From assembly GCF_005160265.1 (NCBI RefSeq), contig NZ_CP039865.1:2070828-2134827 (forward strand): a stretch of 64,000 nucleotides of DNA. Reading direction: 5' to 3'. A model generated the notes under the pieces. The model was given only the letters and a program-made list of their open reading frames with translations, ran no database searches and was not told where the DNA came from. This document shows positions 47,075 to 61,645 of this stretch, in pieces. Numbering within the stretch: position 1 is the first letter of the stretch; every line of letters starts with the position of its first letter. The translations under genes were made by a program, and so were the position numbers. Source of the DNA: Phreatobacter aquaticus (lineage in GTDB: Bacteria; Pseudomonadota; Alphaproteobacteria; Rhizobiales; Phreatobacteraceae).

Positions 47075-47629
47075 TCAGGCCGCGCGCAGGATCAGGATCT
47101 GGCTGTCGCCGGCTTCGCGCTTCTCCAGGAGCGTGAAGCCGTCCGGCAGGTCGACCGTCACCTCTGCGGCCTCTTCGACGATCACCAGCGCCTGGCGCGT
47201 CAGCCAGCCGCCATCGCGCAGACTGATCAGCGCAAGCTCGGCCAGGCCCTTGCGATAGGGCGGATCGAGAAAGGCGAGGCTGAAGGGCTCGAAGGGCGCA
47301 AGCGGCCCGAGCTTGGTGGCATCGCGCTTCAACAGCCCGGTAATGCCGGACAATCCGAGCGCATCGACATTGCCGCGGATCAGTCCGCGTCCCTCGGCGC
47401 TCTGGTCGACAAAGGCCGCATAGACGGCACCGCGCGACAGCGCCTCAATGGCGAGCGCGCCGGTGCCGGCAAACAGGTCGACGACGCGGGCACCCTGGCA
47501 CGCGTCGTCATAGGCATGGGCGAGAACGTTGAACAGGCTCTCGCGCAGACGGTCCGAGGTCGGACGGATGGCGTCCGACTTCGGTCCCAGCAAGGTTCGG
47601 CCTTTCAGCCGGCCACCGACGATCCGCAA
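47075..47629 (-). CDS. rsmD: 16S rRNA m2G966 methyltransferase
   Basis: 184 residues with the RsmD start MRIVGGRLKGR, SAM site VVDLFAGTGALAIEALSRGA and the catalytic FLDPPYRKG. It methylates G966 in 16S rRNA. The start codon is TTG at 47629, 3 nt after the stop of the pseudouridine synthase gene; a GGGAG about 9 nt upstream supports it and lies inside that gene, so translation is coupled. Confidence 0.94.
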   Translation of the reverse strand: MRIVGGRLKGRTLLGPKSDAIRPTSDRLRESLFNVLAHAYDDACQGARVVDLFAGTGALAIEALSRGAVYAAFVDQSAEGRGLIRGNVDALGLSGITGLLKRDATKLGPLAPFEPFSLAFLDPPYRKGLAELALISLRDGGWLTRQALVIVEEAAEVTVDLPDGFTLLEKREAGDSQILILRAA

Positions 47630-47632
47630 GGC

Positions 47633-50600
47633 TCAGCGCTCCCGCTTGCCCCCGCCCGGACGGCCCTTGCCGCCGAAGGGCTTGCCACCGAAAGGCTTGC
47701 CGCCACCCGGACGATCGCCGAACGGACGGCCTTCGCTGCGGCCGCCGAAGCTCTTGCCGCCACCGCCGCCGAAGCTCTTGCCACCGCCGCCGCCGAAGCT
47801 GCGGCCACGATCCGGCCGGTCACCGGAGGGACGATCGCCGAATGGGCGGTCTCCCCTCGGCTTGAAGCCGCGATCCGGACGGTCGCCCGACGGACGGTCG
47901 CCGAACGAGCGCTCGCCACGAGGCTTGAAGTCGCGCTGCGGCCGGTCGCCATCGGGACGGTCGCCCCTTGGCTTGAAGCCGCGATCCGGACGGTCGCCGA
48001 ACGGACGGTCACCGCGCGGCTTGAAGTCGCGCTGCGGCCTGTCACCCGACGGGCGATCACCGAAGGGGCGGTCACCCCTGGGCTTGAAGCCACGATCAGG
48101 ACGGTCACCGGACGGACGATCGCCGAACGGGCGGTCGCCCCTCGGCTTGAAGTCGCGCTGCGGCCTGTCGCCATCGGGACGGTCACCGAACGAGCGCTCA
48201 CCCCGGGGCTTGAAGTCACGCTGCGGCCTGTCGCCCGACGGACGATCACCGAACGGACGGTCACCGAACGGACGGTCACCCCTGGGCTTGAAGCCACGAT
48301 CCGGACGATCACCCGACGGACGGTCGCCGAACGGGCGGTCGCCCCTCGGCTTGAAGCCACGATCCGGACGATCACCCGACGGACGATCGCCGAACGGACG
48401 GTCACCCCGCGGCTTGAAGCCACGGTCGGGCCGATCGCCTGACGGGCGATCACCGAACGGGCGGTCACCCCTCGGCTTGAAGCCCCGGTCGGGACGATCG
48501 CCTGACGGACGGTCACCGAACGGGCGGTCGCCCCTCGGCTTGAAGTCGCGCTGCGGACTCTCGCCCTCGGCACGCTCGGCCCAGGGCTTCACGTTGCGCT
48601 CGCGGTCCGCGAAGCTGCGATCCGGACGATCGCCGAAGGAACGCTCACCCCTCGGCTTGAAGTTGCGCTGCGGCCTGTCGCCATCGGGACGGTCGCCCCT
48701 GGGCTTGAAGCCACGATCCGGACGATCGCCGAACGACCGCTCTCCGCGCGGCTTGAAATCGCGCTGCGGACGTTCGCCACGGTCCTCGAAGCGGCTCGGC
48801 CGCTCCTCGCGCGCCGGGGCGTCTTCGCCACCGACCCGCTCGACCCGGACGCGACGGCCCTTGGAATCCTCCACCGGCGGGCCGCGACGGAAATCGCGGT
48901 CGCCGCCTTCGGCCGGCCGGCTGCCGCCCTTGAAGCTCGGGCGAGCCTTGCGCACCGGCATGGCTTCCGTTGCCTCGCCGTCGCGCCAGATCCGCGGACG
49001 CGAGCCGAACTTGTGCTCGGGGCTCTTGCCCTGCGGACGGTTGTCGCCCTCCTCGCGGTCGAACGAGCGCGGGCGCTCGGACCGACCTTCGAAGCGGCTC
49101 GGACGTTCGGCACGATCGCCGAACCGGCTCGGGCGCTCGTCGCGGCCACGGGCGGGACGCTCGCTGCGCTCCTCGCGACGGACAGGACGCTCGCTGCGGT
49201 CCTCGCGGCCACGGGAAGGCTTGGAACCGCCACGGTCGTCGCGGGCTCCGATCTGCTCGAACACCGGGCGGTCGAATTCGACGCCGGCCAGTTCCGAGAG
49301 CTCTTCGCCAAGCTGGTCGCGCAGCACGCGGGTGCGGACCTCGTCCACCTCGCCCTCGGGCAGCTCACCGAGCTGGAACGGACCGAACGACACGCGGATC
49401 AGACGGTTCACGTCGAGACCGATAGCGCCCAGCACGTTCTTGACTTCGCGGTTCTTGCCTTCGCGCAGCGACAGGGTCAGCCAGGAATTGGTGCCCTGGA
49501 TGCGGTCAAGCTCGGCCTCGATCGGGCCATACTCGACGCCGTCGACCTCGATGCCGCCACGCAGACGGTCGAGCGTGTCCTGGTCCACGATGCCGTGGGC
49601 CCGGACGCGATAGCGGCGCAGCCAGCCGGTGGCCGGCAAAGCCAGCACGCGGGCGAGACCACCATCGTTGGTCAGCAGCAGCAGGCCTTCGGTGTTGATG
49701 TCGAGACGGCCGACGGTGACGACGCGCGGCAGGTCATCCGGCAGTGCATCGAAGATCGTCGAACGGCCCTCGGGGTCACTGGTCGTGGTCACCAGGCCAG
49801 CCGGCTTGTGGTAGAGCCACAGCCTTGTGCGCTCGCGCTCCGGCAGCCGCTCGCCATCCACCAGGATCACGTCGCTTTCGACGACGTTCAACGCCGGCGA
49901 GTTCAGGACCTTGCCATTGACGCTGACGCGTCCGGCATCGATCCATTCCTCGGCTTCGCGGCGCGAGCAGAGGCCTGCACGGGCGAGAACGCGGGCGATC
50001 CGCTCCTCGCCGCGATTGACCGGCTCGAACGAGCGGTCGATCTGGCGCGGCACGGTGTTGCGGTCGCGGGTTGCGCGGCCTTCCGTGCGCTTCGGCTGGT
50101 CGTCGCGCTCGGAGGCCGGCGGACGGGCGTCGCGCGGGTCGAACCGGCTGGTCCGCTCATCGTCACGCTCGCGCGGCTGACGCTTCGGAGCCCGGGTAAA
50201 GCCAGCCTGCGCGGCCAGCGCCTTCACTACCGGATCCTCGTCGATGTCCTCGAGGAAGGCGGGAACGTCGTCGTCGAGCTCGATCTCGAGATCGGCGTCG
50301 GGCTCGAACGTGGCCTTGGCCTTGCCGGCCTTTGCGGGCTTGGCGGCCTTTTCAGGCTTGGCGGGCTTTTCGATCTTGGCAGCCTTGGCCGGCTTCTCAG
50401 CCTTGGCCGGCTTCGGGGCCTCGACGGCCTCGGGCTCGGCAACAACCTTGGCGGCCTTGGCCGACTTGGCGGGCTTGGCAGCAACCGGAGCGGCTTCCAC
50501 CGGCTCGGCCTTCACGGCCTTGGCCTTGGCGGCCTTCGCCGGCTTGGCATCGACGACGATGTCGGCCTTGGCAACAGCGGCCTTCTTCGGCGCAGCAGCG

Positions 50601-50905
50601 GCCTTCGGAGCAGCAGCCTTTGCCGCAGCCTTCTTGGGCGCAGCAACCTTGGCGGGTTCGGCAGCCTTCGGCTTGGCAACCGGGGCGGATTCGGGCTTGT
50701 CAGCTTTCGTGACGGCCTTCGCGGCCTTCTTCGGCGCGGGCTTGGCGGTCTCGATCAGAACGGTGGCGGCGCTCTCGTCAGCGGCGGCTTTGCTCTTGGA
50801 TGTCTTGGTTGCGACGGCCTTCTTGGCGGTCTCTGTCATGCCGTTGGAATCGGCTTTTCGCGTCCGGCCGGTAGCCGGGCGATCCTTGTCGCTCTTGCGG
50901 TTCAT
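47633..50905 (-). CDS. rluB: RluB-type pseudouridine synthase with long basic head and repeat tail
   Basis: 1090 residues, about four times the usual RluB length. Residues 30-200 are a Lys/Ala/Pro-rich, histone-H1-like head (AAKPAKA units). An S4 RNA-binding domain (about 301-350) and the synthase core with GRLDINTEGLLLLTNDG (catalytic Asp about 402) follow to about 535. The remainder is low complexity: Arg/Asp/Gly-rich with about fifteen FKPRG-containing repeats, then a Gly/Lys tail. It should isomerise a uridine in 23S rRNA (equivalent to U2605). It is upstream of rsmD, so both encode rRNA modification. Confidence 0.92.
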   Translation of the reverse strand: MNRKSDKDRPATGRTRKADSNGMTETAKKAVATKTSKSKAAADESAATVLIETAKPAPKKAAKAVTKADKPESAPVAKPKAAEPAKVAAPKKAAAKAAAPKAAAAPKKAAVAKADIVVDAKPAKAAKAKAVKAEPVEAAPVAAKPAKSAKAAKVVAEPEAVEAPKPAKAEKPAKAAKIEKPAKPEKAAKPAKAGKAKATFEPDADLEIELDDDVPAFLEDIDEDPVVKALAAQAGFTRAPKRQPRERDDERTSRFDPRDARPPASERDDQPKRTEGRATRDRNTVPRQIDRSFEPVNRGEERIARVLARAGLCSRREAEEWIDAGRVSVNGKVLNSPALNVVESDVILVDGERLPERERTRLWLYHKPAGLVTTTSDPEGRSTIFDALPDDLPRVVTVGRLDINTEGLLLLTNDGGLARVLALPATGWLRRYRVRAHGIVDQDTLDRLRGGIEVDGVEYGPIEAELDRIQGTNSWLTLSLREGKNREVKNVLGAIGLDVNRLIRVSFGPFQLGELPEGEVDEVRTRVLRDQLGEELSELAGVEFDRPVFEQIGARDDRGGSKPSRGREDRSERPVRREERSERPARGRDERPSRFGDRAERPSRFEGRSERPRSFDREEGDNRPQGKSPEHKFGSRPRIWRDGEATEAMPVRKARPSFKGGSRPAEGGDRDFRRGPPVEDSKGRRVRVERVGGEDAPAREERPSRFEDRGERPQRDFKPRGERSFGDRPDRGFKPRGDRPDGDRPQRNFKPRGERSFGDRPDRSFADRERNVKPWAERAEGESPQRDFKPRGDRPFGDRPSGDRPDRGFKPRGDRPFGDRPSGDRPDRGFKPRGDRPFGDRPSGDRPDRGFKPRGDRPFGDRPSGDRPDRGFKPRGDRPFGDRPFGDRPSGDRPQRDFKPRGERSFGDRPDGDRPQRDFKPRGDRPFGDRPSGDRPDRGFKPRGDRPFGDRPSGDRPQRDFKPRGDRPFGDRPDRGFKPRGDRPDGDRPQRDFKPRGERSFGDRPSGDRPDRGFKPRGDRPFGDRPSGDRPDRGRSFGGGGGKSFGGGGGKSFGGRSEGRPFGDRPGGGKPFGGKPFGGKGRPGGGKRER
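47820..48780. repeat. Coding tandem repeats (about 63 bp) in the RluB-type gene
   Basis: Units encode GFKPRGDRPFGDRPSGDRPD-like sequence, typically 21 residues, with shorter and longer variants. About fifteen contain an intact FKPRG and one is degenerate (VKPWA). The unit length stays divisible by three, so the reading frame is maintained. Repeat number could vary between strains by slippage or recombination. Confidence 0.85.
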
Positions 50906-51000
50906 AGGTGTCTCGTGAGATCGGGTTGTCGCGGCGCCATCCGGCGTGCGCGGCCGGGAACCCCGGCAGGAATGGGCGCCTTTAGCACGAACGAGCCGAA

Positions 51001-51465
51001 ATGGCGAGAGAAGACGAGCATGCGTCGTTAACGCCCATGGCGGCAGCCCTCGACGAGGCGCGGCTGGCGGCGGTGCGCGGCGAGGTTCCGGTCGGCGCGG
51101 TCTTGGTCAAGGATGGCCAGATCATCGCGCGTGCCGGCAACCGGACGCTGGCCGACCATGACCCGACAGCCCATGCCGAGATCGTCGCGATCCGCATGGC
51201 CTGCCAGGCCTTGGGCTCCGAACGGCTGCCGGGTTGCGATCTCTATGTGACGCTGGAGCCTTGCCCGATGTGCGCGGCGGCGATCTCGTTCGCGCGCATC
51301 CGCCGGCTCTATTTCGGCGCCTCTGATCCGAAAGGCGGGGCGGTCGAGAACGGCGTCCGGCTCTATGGCGACCCGACCTGCCATCACAAGCCCGAGGTCT
51401 ATGGGGGCATGAGCGAGACCGAGGCCTCGCACCTTCTCAAGGACTTTTTCCGCAGCCGCCGCTAG
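51001..51465 (+). CDS. tadA: tRNA-specific adenosine deaminase
   Basis: 154 residues with the zinc-deaminase motifs HAEIVAI (catalytic Glu) and PCPMCAAA. It converts A34 to inosine in tRNA-Arg(ACG). Divergent from the pseudouridine synthase gene and convergent with the iron permease gene (6 bp). Confidence 0.96.
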   Translation: MAREDEHASLTPMAAALDEARLAAVRGEVPVGAVLVKDGQIIARAGNRTLADHDPTAHAEIVAIRMACQALGSERLPGCDLYVTLEPCPMCAAAISFARIRRLYFGASDPKGGAVENGVRLYGDPTCHHKPEVYGGMSETEASHLLKDFFRSRR

Positions 51466-61244: not shown

Positions 61245-61268
61245 GCGGCGGGCTCGCCAATCGGCCCT

Positions 61269-61296
61269 TTCGCAGTCGCGCCGGCTCGCCTATATT
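61269..61296 (+). promoter_or_regulatory. Promoter of the tmRNA gene
   Basis: TTCGCA (61269-61274) and TATATT (61291-61296) match the -35 and -10 elements with a 16-bp spacer. The start of transcription would fall near 61303, right at the 5' end of the acceptor piece. Confidence 0.55.
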
Positions 61297-61302
61297 CAAG
61301 AC

Positions 61303-61645
61303 GCCGGGGCAACCCGGATACGGCGATAAACGGTCATCGTAATAAGCCTATCGGACCCGGGGGCAGTACCCGGCGCCTCCACCAGGAGCCCCTTCGCGAA
61401 GGGATTGCTGATGGGGGCGAAACAGGATCGACGAGGGTGTAAAGGGTGTTCTTTCGCTCGGCATGGTTCCGCCGTCATCGGGCCATTCAATAGTTGCCAA
61501 CGACAACTATGCTCCGGTGGCCGTTGCCGCGTAATGCGGTAATAGTACCGAAATCAAGCCCTTGCGGGTAGCACCGTAAGGCGGGGTTCGGAGGCACCTG
61601 GCAACAGAAGCCTCCACTTCCTTCCGCCTGTCCCAGGTGGTGGTA
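61303..61645 (+). ncRNA. ssrA: Two-piece (circularly permuted) tmRNA
   Basis: The acceptor piece comes first and ends in the encoded CCA (61382-61384); an excised spacer follows; the coding piece begins GGGGGCG at 61413. GGGGGCG pairs with CGCCTCC before the CCA to give a 7-bp acceptor stem with a G-U at the third pair, the alanine-identity element. The tag frame is GCC at 61496 to GCG at 61531 (ANDNYAPVAVAA) followed by TAA 61532-61534. A pseudoknot can be drawn at 61590-61639 (GGAGGC/GCCTCC with CACCTGG/CCAGGTG). It rescues stalled ribosomes and tags the nascent chains. Both ends are estimated. Confidence 0.93.

Follow-up and report, generated by a model that had tools for sequence, protein, structure and literature searches.

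Within a 64,000-nucleotide stretch of Phreatobacter aquaticus DNA (assembly GCF_005160265.1, contig NZ_CP039865.1, positions 2,070,828 to 2,134,827; hereafter, the window), an rluB-type pseudouridine synthase gene occupies positions 47633..50905 on the minus strand. It starts with ATG and encodes 1090 residues, in which an ordinary enzyme core is flanked by two long charged arms. The start codon is backed by an N-terminus conserved in Phreatobacter (MPRK..DDRPA.SRT vs MNRKSDKDRPATGRT). The protein opens with a Lys/Ala/Pro-rich head (residues 1-205, 50291..50905) with a fraction of charged residues (FCR) of 0.35 and a net charge of +0.13 per residue; residues 1-200 contain 33.5% Ala, 22.5% Lys and 10.5% Pro, with 49 basic and 20 acidic residues. 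Pfam detected no domain in the head at an E value of 0.01. Comparison of loci revealed an acidic motif, VPAFLEDIDEDPVVKALAAQAG, at residues 214-235 (50201..50266), with a predicted helix at 225-233. The S4 domain (residues 301-347, 49865..50005) and the PseudoU_synth_2 catalytic domain (362-492, 49430..49822) come next. The tail (residues 563-1090) consists of 22.9% Arg, 17.6% Gly, 14.4% Pro, 13.1% Asp and 6.1% Glu, with an FCR of 0.47. Its first section (563-716) is rich in Arg, Glu, Asp and Gly and holds two conserved islands, the Trp motif IWRDGEA (639-645, 48971..48991) and GRRVRVERV (683-691, 48833..48859); the FKPRG repeat array (717-1033, 47807..48757) and a Gly/Lys-rich end (1034-1090, 47636..47806), whose last residues are KRER, complete the protein. 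A first-pass annotation of the sequence had described a head of 200 and a tail of about 550 residues: the Lys/Ala/Pro part is indeed about 200 residues long, 295 residues in all precede the core, and the tail measures 528.

The identity of the core was determined by profile, sequence and fold comparison. Pfam placed PF01479 (S4) at 51.1 bits (cut-off 22.8) ahead of PF00849 (PseudoU_synth_2) at 49.8 bits (cut-off 26.8), and the NCBIfam subfamily TIGR00093 scored 123.8 bits, over its cut-off of 109.3. The RluB equivalog NF007976 reached 155.8 bits, under its cut-off of 290, yet it was the top equivalog, with RsuA (79.2), RluF (75.4) and RluE (71.8 bits) scoring lower. Because that cut-off was missed, the gene is named RluB-type rather than a curated RluB member. 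In a phmmer search of PDB sequences, the best matches were RluB entries 9cl9 and 4lab/4lgt (E values, 1.8e-42 and 9.4e-42), followed by RluE (4.8e-23), and the nearest fold by Foldseek was RluB 4lgt (E value, 1.0e-23). In the alignment with 9cl9, counted by hand, Arg400, Asp402, Tyr432 and Arg486 pair with Arg108, Asp110, Tyr140 and Arg194 of Escherichia coli RluB. Among these, Asp110 is described as catalytic, Tyr140 as covalently engaged and Arg108 as intercalating, and Arg194 is also assigned a role (PMC3919597). The genome holds four further PF00849 matches, three RluA-family-like and one RsuA-like (scanned as fragments, below cut-offs), and this gene is the sole RluB/E/F-type enzyme that the PF00849 search found. 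The 23-base target stem-loop, with the E. coli sequence as query, occurs once in the 23S ribosomal RNA (rRNA) gene of the organism with no mismatch. These results support the first-pass view of an RluB-type enzyme with a normal core, and formation of pseudouridine 2605 in 23S rRNA is predicted.

The repeat array contains FKPRG exactly 15 times, in frame, as the first-pass annotation had estimated, plus one diverged VKPWA unit; FGDRP also occurs 15 times and GDRP 38 times. Tandem Repeats Finder scores in the array reach 736. The 16 units are less regular than the proposed 21-residue period: nine have 21 residues (the last of them if the following Gly is counted, 20 otherwise), five have 16, one has 23 and one has 26. 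The claim that the repeats are nearly identical as DNA did not hold. The nine 21-residue units share a mean DNA identity of 82% (70-94%) and a protein identity of 92%, and six units with identical protein sequences differ from one another at 4-12 of 63 bases (mean, 7.5), compared with 11.0 expected for codons drawn at random from the gene. Across the nine units, the silent-site difference (pS) was 0.52 and the replacement difference (pN) 0.061, a pN/pS of 0.118 with no identity cut applied. Neutral simulations (star tree, random mutation, three transition biases, similar divergence) gave mean ratios of 0.83-1.08 and a lowest value of 0.39, so that none of 900 runs was at or below 0.118. Silent-site divergence and the neutral simulation together rule out fresh slippage of near-identical DNA. 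Gene conversion or slippage should erase silent differences along with the others, and the simplest reading of these sequence comparisons is therefore selection on the repeat unit at the protein level.

The assembly gives little reason to doubt the repeat number. The source isolate, Phreatobacter sp. NMCR1094, is a freshwater bacterium whose genome was assembled by HGAP from PacBio RS II data of 183x coverage (PMC6742797). The genome is a single contig of 4,974,952 bases, and an assembly artefact, which the first-pass annotation had raised, was judged unlikely from this contig and coverage, with raw reads not seen. Two antisense open frames on the plus strand, 47529-49613 (694 residues) and 49013-51031 (672 residues), were considered as genes. 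Since protein-level constraint is seen in the rluB frame, they were judged to arise probably as a side effect of the GC-rich repeats. Fourteen of the 15 AGG Arg codons of the gene lie inside the repeats (47807-48757), ten of them at FKP-R-G; this clustering is likely a trace of the common descent of the units.

To place the arms in a wider context, 93 loci were compared, of which 80 (L018-L097) were the best by core similarity and thus not a random sample. Removal of the window and duplicates (L005, L006, L018-L022) left 86 loci, 82 with a complete C-terminus. In-frame arrays with at least three copies were present in 49 of the 93 loci, duplicates included. Constraint was estimated for a single array from each gene (period, 45 bases or more; at least three copies; score, 150 or more), with the end-cut copy of the window gene (L006) added back. 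All 19 arrays, 15 in tails and four in heads, had pN/pS below 1, with a median of 0.144; unit pairs below 70% DNA identity were omitted, which can lower the ratio. The window gene scored 0.41 in this test, since its best-scoring period there was 189 bases.

In ten Phreatobacter proteins with complete tails, the window included, FKPRG is present 5 to 15 times, and the type of unit varies by species group (FKPRGDRPFGDRPSGDRPDRG; FKPRGDRPFGDRPPRDRDGDERPRRD; FKPRGDRPFRDRDGDAPRGD). Mean unit identity was 0.69 within and 0.54 between species. The window and loci L007 and L009 share one unit type, with identities of 0.77-0.80 between them, equal to those within. This pattern indicates that FKPRG persists even as the arrays are renewed from one species group to another. 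The earlier proposal of quick changes in copy number is therefore correct only in part: FKPRG number does vary between species, whereas its premise of near-identity was wrong, and a pS of 0.52 means that the copies are not recent. Beyond Phreatobacter, members of the order carry arrays of other Arg-rich units.

Conserved motifs also lie outside the repeats. A Trp motif was found in 65 of 82 tails and takes three forms: [I/V..]WR[AD]xE in 34 relatives, nine of them Phreatobacter (class A); VW[MR]APGAR in 21 (class B); and IW[SG][ED][DE]G in nine (class C), with one relative carrying both of the first two. The patterns were composed after inspection of the tails; shuffling the tails gave an expectation of 0.455 matches for class A and zero for the other two. 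Two alignments were built, A1 from 49 of the 80 loci plus the window and A2 from nine sequences plus the window. In A2, half of whose ten sequences come from Phreatobacter, Trp640 hardly varies and Gly683, Arg684, Val686, Val688 and Glu689 are the same throughout.

Structure prediction was consistent with disordered arms. In the first AlphaFold run, the predicted local distance difference test (pLDDT) score of the tail was mostly below 50 beside a confident core, and residues 675-688, which overlap the start of GRRVRVERV, formed the only longer tail stretch at 50 or above (block mean, 61). The second run, of the full-length protein with ten sequences, had a mean pLDDT of 40 and part of the core below 50, which makes it weak evidence of disorder. 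Neither run contained a folded tail domain or any structure at the Trp motif, and only a weak strand pair (678-679/685-686) was seen. We read IWRDGEA and GRRVRVERV as putative docking motifs that would fold, if at all, on a partner. The charges of the tail are well mixed (kappa 0.04-0.06 by an approximate formula), and nearly every unit has at least one Phe. Composition thus backs, and AlphaFold weakly supports, the earlier description of the arms as charged and probably disordered. A glycine/arginine-rich (GAR/RGG) domain is a Gly/Arg-rich region with few acidic residues. The tail repeats read FKPRGDRPFGDRP, and with 13.1% Asp and 6.1% Glu in the tail they fall outside that class. GAR domains have been set apart from strong polyampholytes (PMC11528048).

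The architecture is not unique to the window; the arms are lineage-wide and not universal. The core was present in 293 of the 297 genomes of the order searched. Among the 73 complete relatives outside Phreatobacter, 65 had tails of at least 100 residues (range, 24-391; median, 267), and all 73 tails were net positive, with Arg, Gly, Pro and Lys together making up at least 49%. Heads, measured from the first in-frame ATG and thus as upper bounds, ranged from 7 to 466 residues in relatives; in L007, the conserved start lies well inside the frame. The window open frame, at 1157 codons, is the third longest after 1228 and 1174 among the order matches listed, and the shortest has 285. The Lys/Ala/Pro head was seen in Phreatobacter loci, and other heads were short or mostly Arg/Gly-rich, L041 (rich in Ala, Pro, Ser, Glu and Lys) being the nearest exception. 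The acidic head motif, FLEDIDEDPVVKAL, is present in 16 Phreatobacter loci (L007-L022; 11 distinct) and in none of 75 other loci, and its helix appears in both AlphaFold models with block pLDDT values of 65 and 54.

The surroundings of the gene recur as well. Directly downstream, starting 3 bases past the rluB stop codon, lies a gene on the minus strand (47075..47629; Pfam PF03602) that we take from its family to be rsmD-like, and upstream lies a divergent plus-strand deaminase gene (51001..51465; PF14437 and PF00383), presumably tadA-like by its families. Across 77 complete loci, the rsmD-like gene is directly downstream in 53, the tadA-like gene divergent upstream in 60, and both are in place in 41. 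The window also contains a permuted alphaproteobacterial transfer-messenger RNA gene at 61264-61618 on the plus strand (Rfam alpha_tmRNA; ARAGORN).

The arms probably do a job, because the repeats look maintained by selection. The reading that we favour, at a rough probability of 0.47, slightly short of even odds, is an ordinary RluB held by its arms, as by a multivalent tether, on newly made 23S rRNA or the pre-50S particle, a role comparable to that of the Lys-rich arm of yeast Cbf5. The enzyme, isomerising U2605 of 23S rRNA, would sit between two polyampholytic disordered arms. The FKPRG[D/E]RPFGDRP units, with their Phe, Arg, Gly and Asp residues, would touch nascent 23S rRNA and immature 50S subunits weakly at many points, and these contacts would raise the local concentration of the enzyme. 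IWRDGEA and GRRVRVERV would dock the protein at a particular rRNA site or on a particular partner. Binding of RNA or particles, docking, and an effect on modification or assembly are what we infer from the constrained units and conserved motifs. The suggestion of the first-pass annotation that the arms bind RNA or ribosomes, or promote condensation, is in this respect plausible and is made likelier by the apparent selection on the unit.

Several published observations bear on such a tether. In the pre-50S entry 9cl9, E. coli RluB is a 283-residue chain in E. coli numbering, and 278 residues are held in the fold library; if these 278 are the residues placed in the structure, the entry would seem, by its title and lengths, to extend past the 251-residue crystal construct by some 27 residues or more. 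In an evolution experiment with Pseudomonas aeruginosa, rluB was mutated ten times independently, at residues 313 and 323, which lie in the disordered C-terminus of the protein (PMC8662654). In yeast, removal of the Lys-rich arm from Cbf5 strongly lowers rRNA pseudouridylation, and peptides of the KKE/D type coacervate with RNA (PMC11528048).

Other observations weigh against a tether. Of the 82 tails, 15 lack Trp, and in two others the Trp fits none of the three classes. In the window protein, the pLDDT of the motif is below 50. The first-pass annotation had pointed to relatives without arms as a counter-case, and nearly arm-less ones do exist: L046 encodes 303 residues with a head of 8 and a tail of 39, three genomes among the order matches listed (G024, G138 and G218) have open frames of 285-304 residues, and many genomes of the same class have proteins of 262-300 residues; one family of that class (f52) spans 262-1133. 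The arms are thus dispensable in some lineages. E. coli RluB has a tail of only 40 residues, which has been called poorly conserved, and stem-loop binding by RluF reportedly owes nothing to its disordered C-terminal domain (PMC3919597). Re-expression of RluB in E. coli lacking ten modification enzymes is reported to have no significant effect on growth (PMC11194073).

An alternative is that the arms are mainly condensate modules, through which RluB and translation initiation factor IF2, both with GDRP repeats in this genus, would meet in RNA-rich condensates formed by translation and assembly factors, for instance at low temperature. The pattern GDRPxGDRP has 27 matches in the window genome, 22 in rluB and five in infB, and the reversed-pattern control has none genome-wide. 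In ten other Phreatobacter genomes, infB is likewise the main site outside rluB, in frame with the IF2 G-domain in nine. The disordered region of IF2 phase-separates with RNA in E. coli and Caulobacter crescentus (PMC11838494), and the high FCR of the RluB tail, with Phe in nearly every unit, fits such behaviour. The well-mixed charges of the tail, however, would favour weak self-association. The repeats are also not always shared with infB, since rluB itself matches GDRPxGDRP in only five of 12 Phreatobacter genomes; in two of the other seven, rluB is cut by a contig end. One incomplete Phreatobacter genome has no match to the pattern at all. We consider a mainly condensate-forming role unlikely.

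The infB sequences themselves deserve description. The IF2 gene of the window genome (G000:C1:727672-728442, minus strand; L099), its only other gene with GDRPxGDRP, has N-terminal PPRPPGDRPFGDR repeats. In one incomplete Phreatobacter genome (L113, G003:C446), the infB repeat region adjoins the IF2 G-domain in a broken frame, possibly through an assembly error.

The arms could also be tolerated low-complexity DNA, in which slippage and GC-rich codons lengthen the ends of the gene and the products are spacers or solubility tags with no specific role. The wide variation in length and unit type (5-15 FKPRG copies; tails of 24-391 residues in 73 relatives), the presence of arrays in about half of the loci (49/93) and the existence of almost arm-less relatives agree with this explanation. 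It is countered by the pN/pS values, below 1 in 19 of 19 arrays and, for the window gene, matched by none of the 900 simulations, and by the conservation of the Trp and GRxVxVE motifs outside the repeats. On this evidence, a lack of any specific role appears rather improbable.

A broader and quite speculative possibility is a nucleolus-like organising code in the Hyphomicrobiales, in which RluB, IF2 and a Suv3-like helicase would carry selected repeat-rich disordered arms with shared motifs. Through GDRP repeats and [I/V]W[R/M] Trp motifs, these proteins would assemble on 23S rRNA as it is made, or in RNA condensates that they share, and the code, if it exists, would be the bacterial counterpart of the KKE/D and GAR arms found on enzymes that modify eukaryotic rRNA. 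One Phreatobacter genome has an extra two-match GDRPxGDRP cluster in the tail of the helicase. For the helicase, 41 genomes of the order were searched, 40 had a match, and 30 loci (L122-L151) were fetched, one with its tail cut short; all 29 complete tails contain [I/V/L]W, and 19 contain [I/V]WRP. The likeness of this motif to the Trp motif of RluB is a lead drawn from sequence comparison. In the window genome, the helicase orthologue (L123:652-4170, minus strand; Pfam DEXQc_Suv3) has a long low-complexity tail.

It is highly doubtful that the Lys/Ala/Pro head binds DNA in the manner of histone H1 and keeps the enzyme at the nucleoid close to the rRNA genes, with the tail secondary: the excess of basic residues in the head and the Lys-rich KKE/D arms that bring eukaryotic modification enzymes near nascent rRNA (PMC11528048) fit the idea, but among the loci compared such heads were seen in Phreatobacter, with L041 the nearest exception elsewhere, and an H1-like composition, from which DNA binding would be predicted, is in itself no test.

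What is new here is the evidence for selection on the repeat units, in a protein whose core is ordinary and whose arms are unusual yet lineage-wide. Full-text literature searches found no publication on these tails, as judged by the listed titles and abstracts, with preprints outside PMC and most subscription papers beyond their scope. RluB tails get little attention, and the enzyme was crystallised with its tail removed (PMC3919597); most members of the order keep long charged arms. If the arms are functional, they would allow the idea that disordered arms enrich modification enzymes at nascent rRNA, reported for yeast Cbf5, to be tested directly in bacteria, and the Trp motif provides a handle for a partner search.

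The RluB-type proteins of other Hyphomicrobiales (Bosea, Methylobacterium, Microvirga, Phyllobacterium and Roseibium, among others) resemble the window protein in the core (67-74% identity over the best segment), in the Arg/Gly/Pro-rich tail, in many cases in gene neighbourhood, and in the Trp motif (56 of 73 complete relatives). The Lys-rich head, the acidic motif and the FKPRG array, in contrast, belong to Phreatobacter, and tails elsewhere reach at most 391 residues and use other units. The N-terminal disordered region of bacterial IF2 has, in Phreatobacter, GDRPFGDRP repeats in common with the window RluB tail; it belongs to a different protein and step, and its unit, PPRPPGDRPFGDR, contained no FKPRG in the stretch inspected. 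Cbf5 is guide-RNA dependent. As part of the eukaryotic small nucleolar ribonucleoprotein, it represents another synthase family, with alternating charge blocks and no sequence relationship to the RluB arms. Its KKE/D arm is nevertheless a disordered, net-positive polyampholyte on an rRNA pseudouridine synthase (PMC11528048), an analogy for which no kinship is claimed. E. coli RluB (4lgt, 4lab and 9cl9) shares the S4 and catalytic core, the Asp, Tyr and Arg residues and the target stem-loop, and its C-terminal extension is also predicted to be disordered (PMC3919597). It has 291 residues with a 40-residue tail, whereas the window protein has 1090, of which 295 form the head and 528 the repeat tail.

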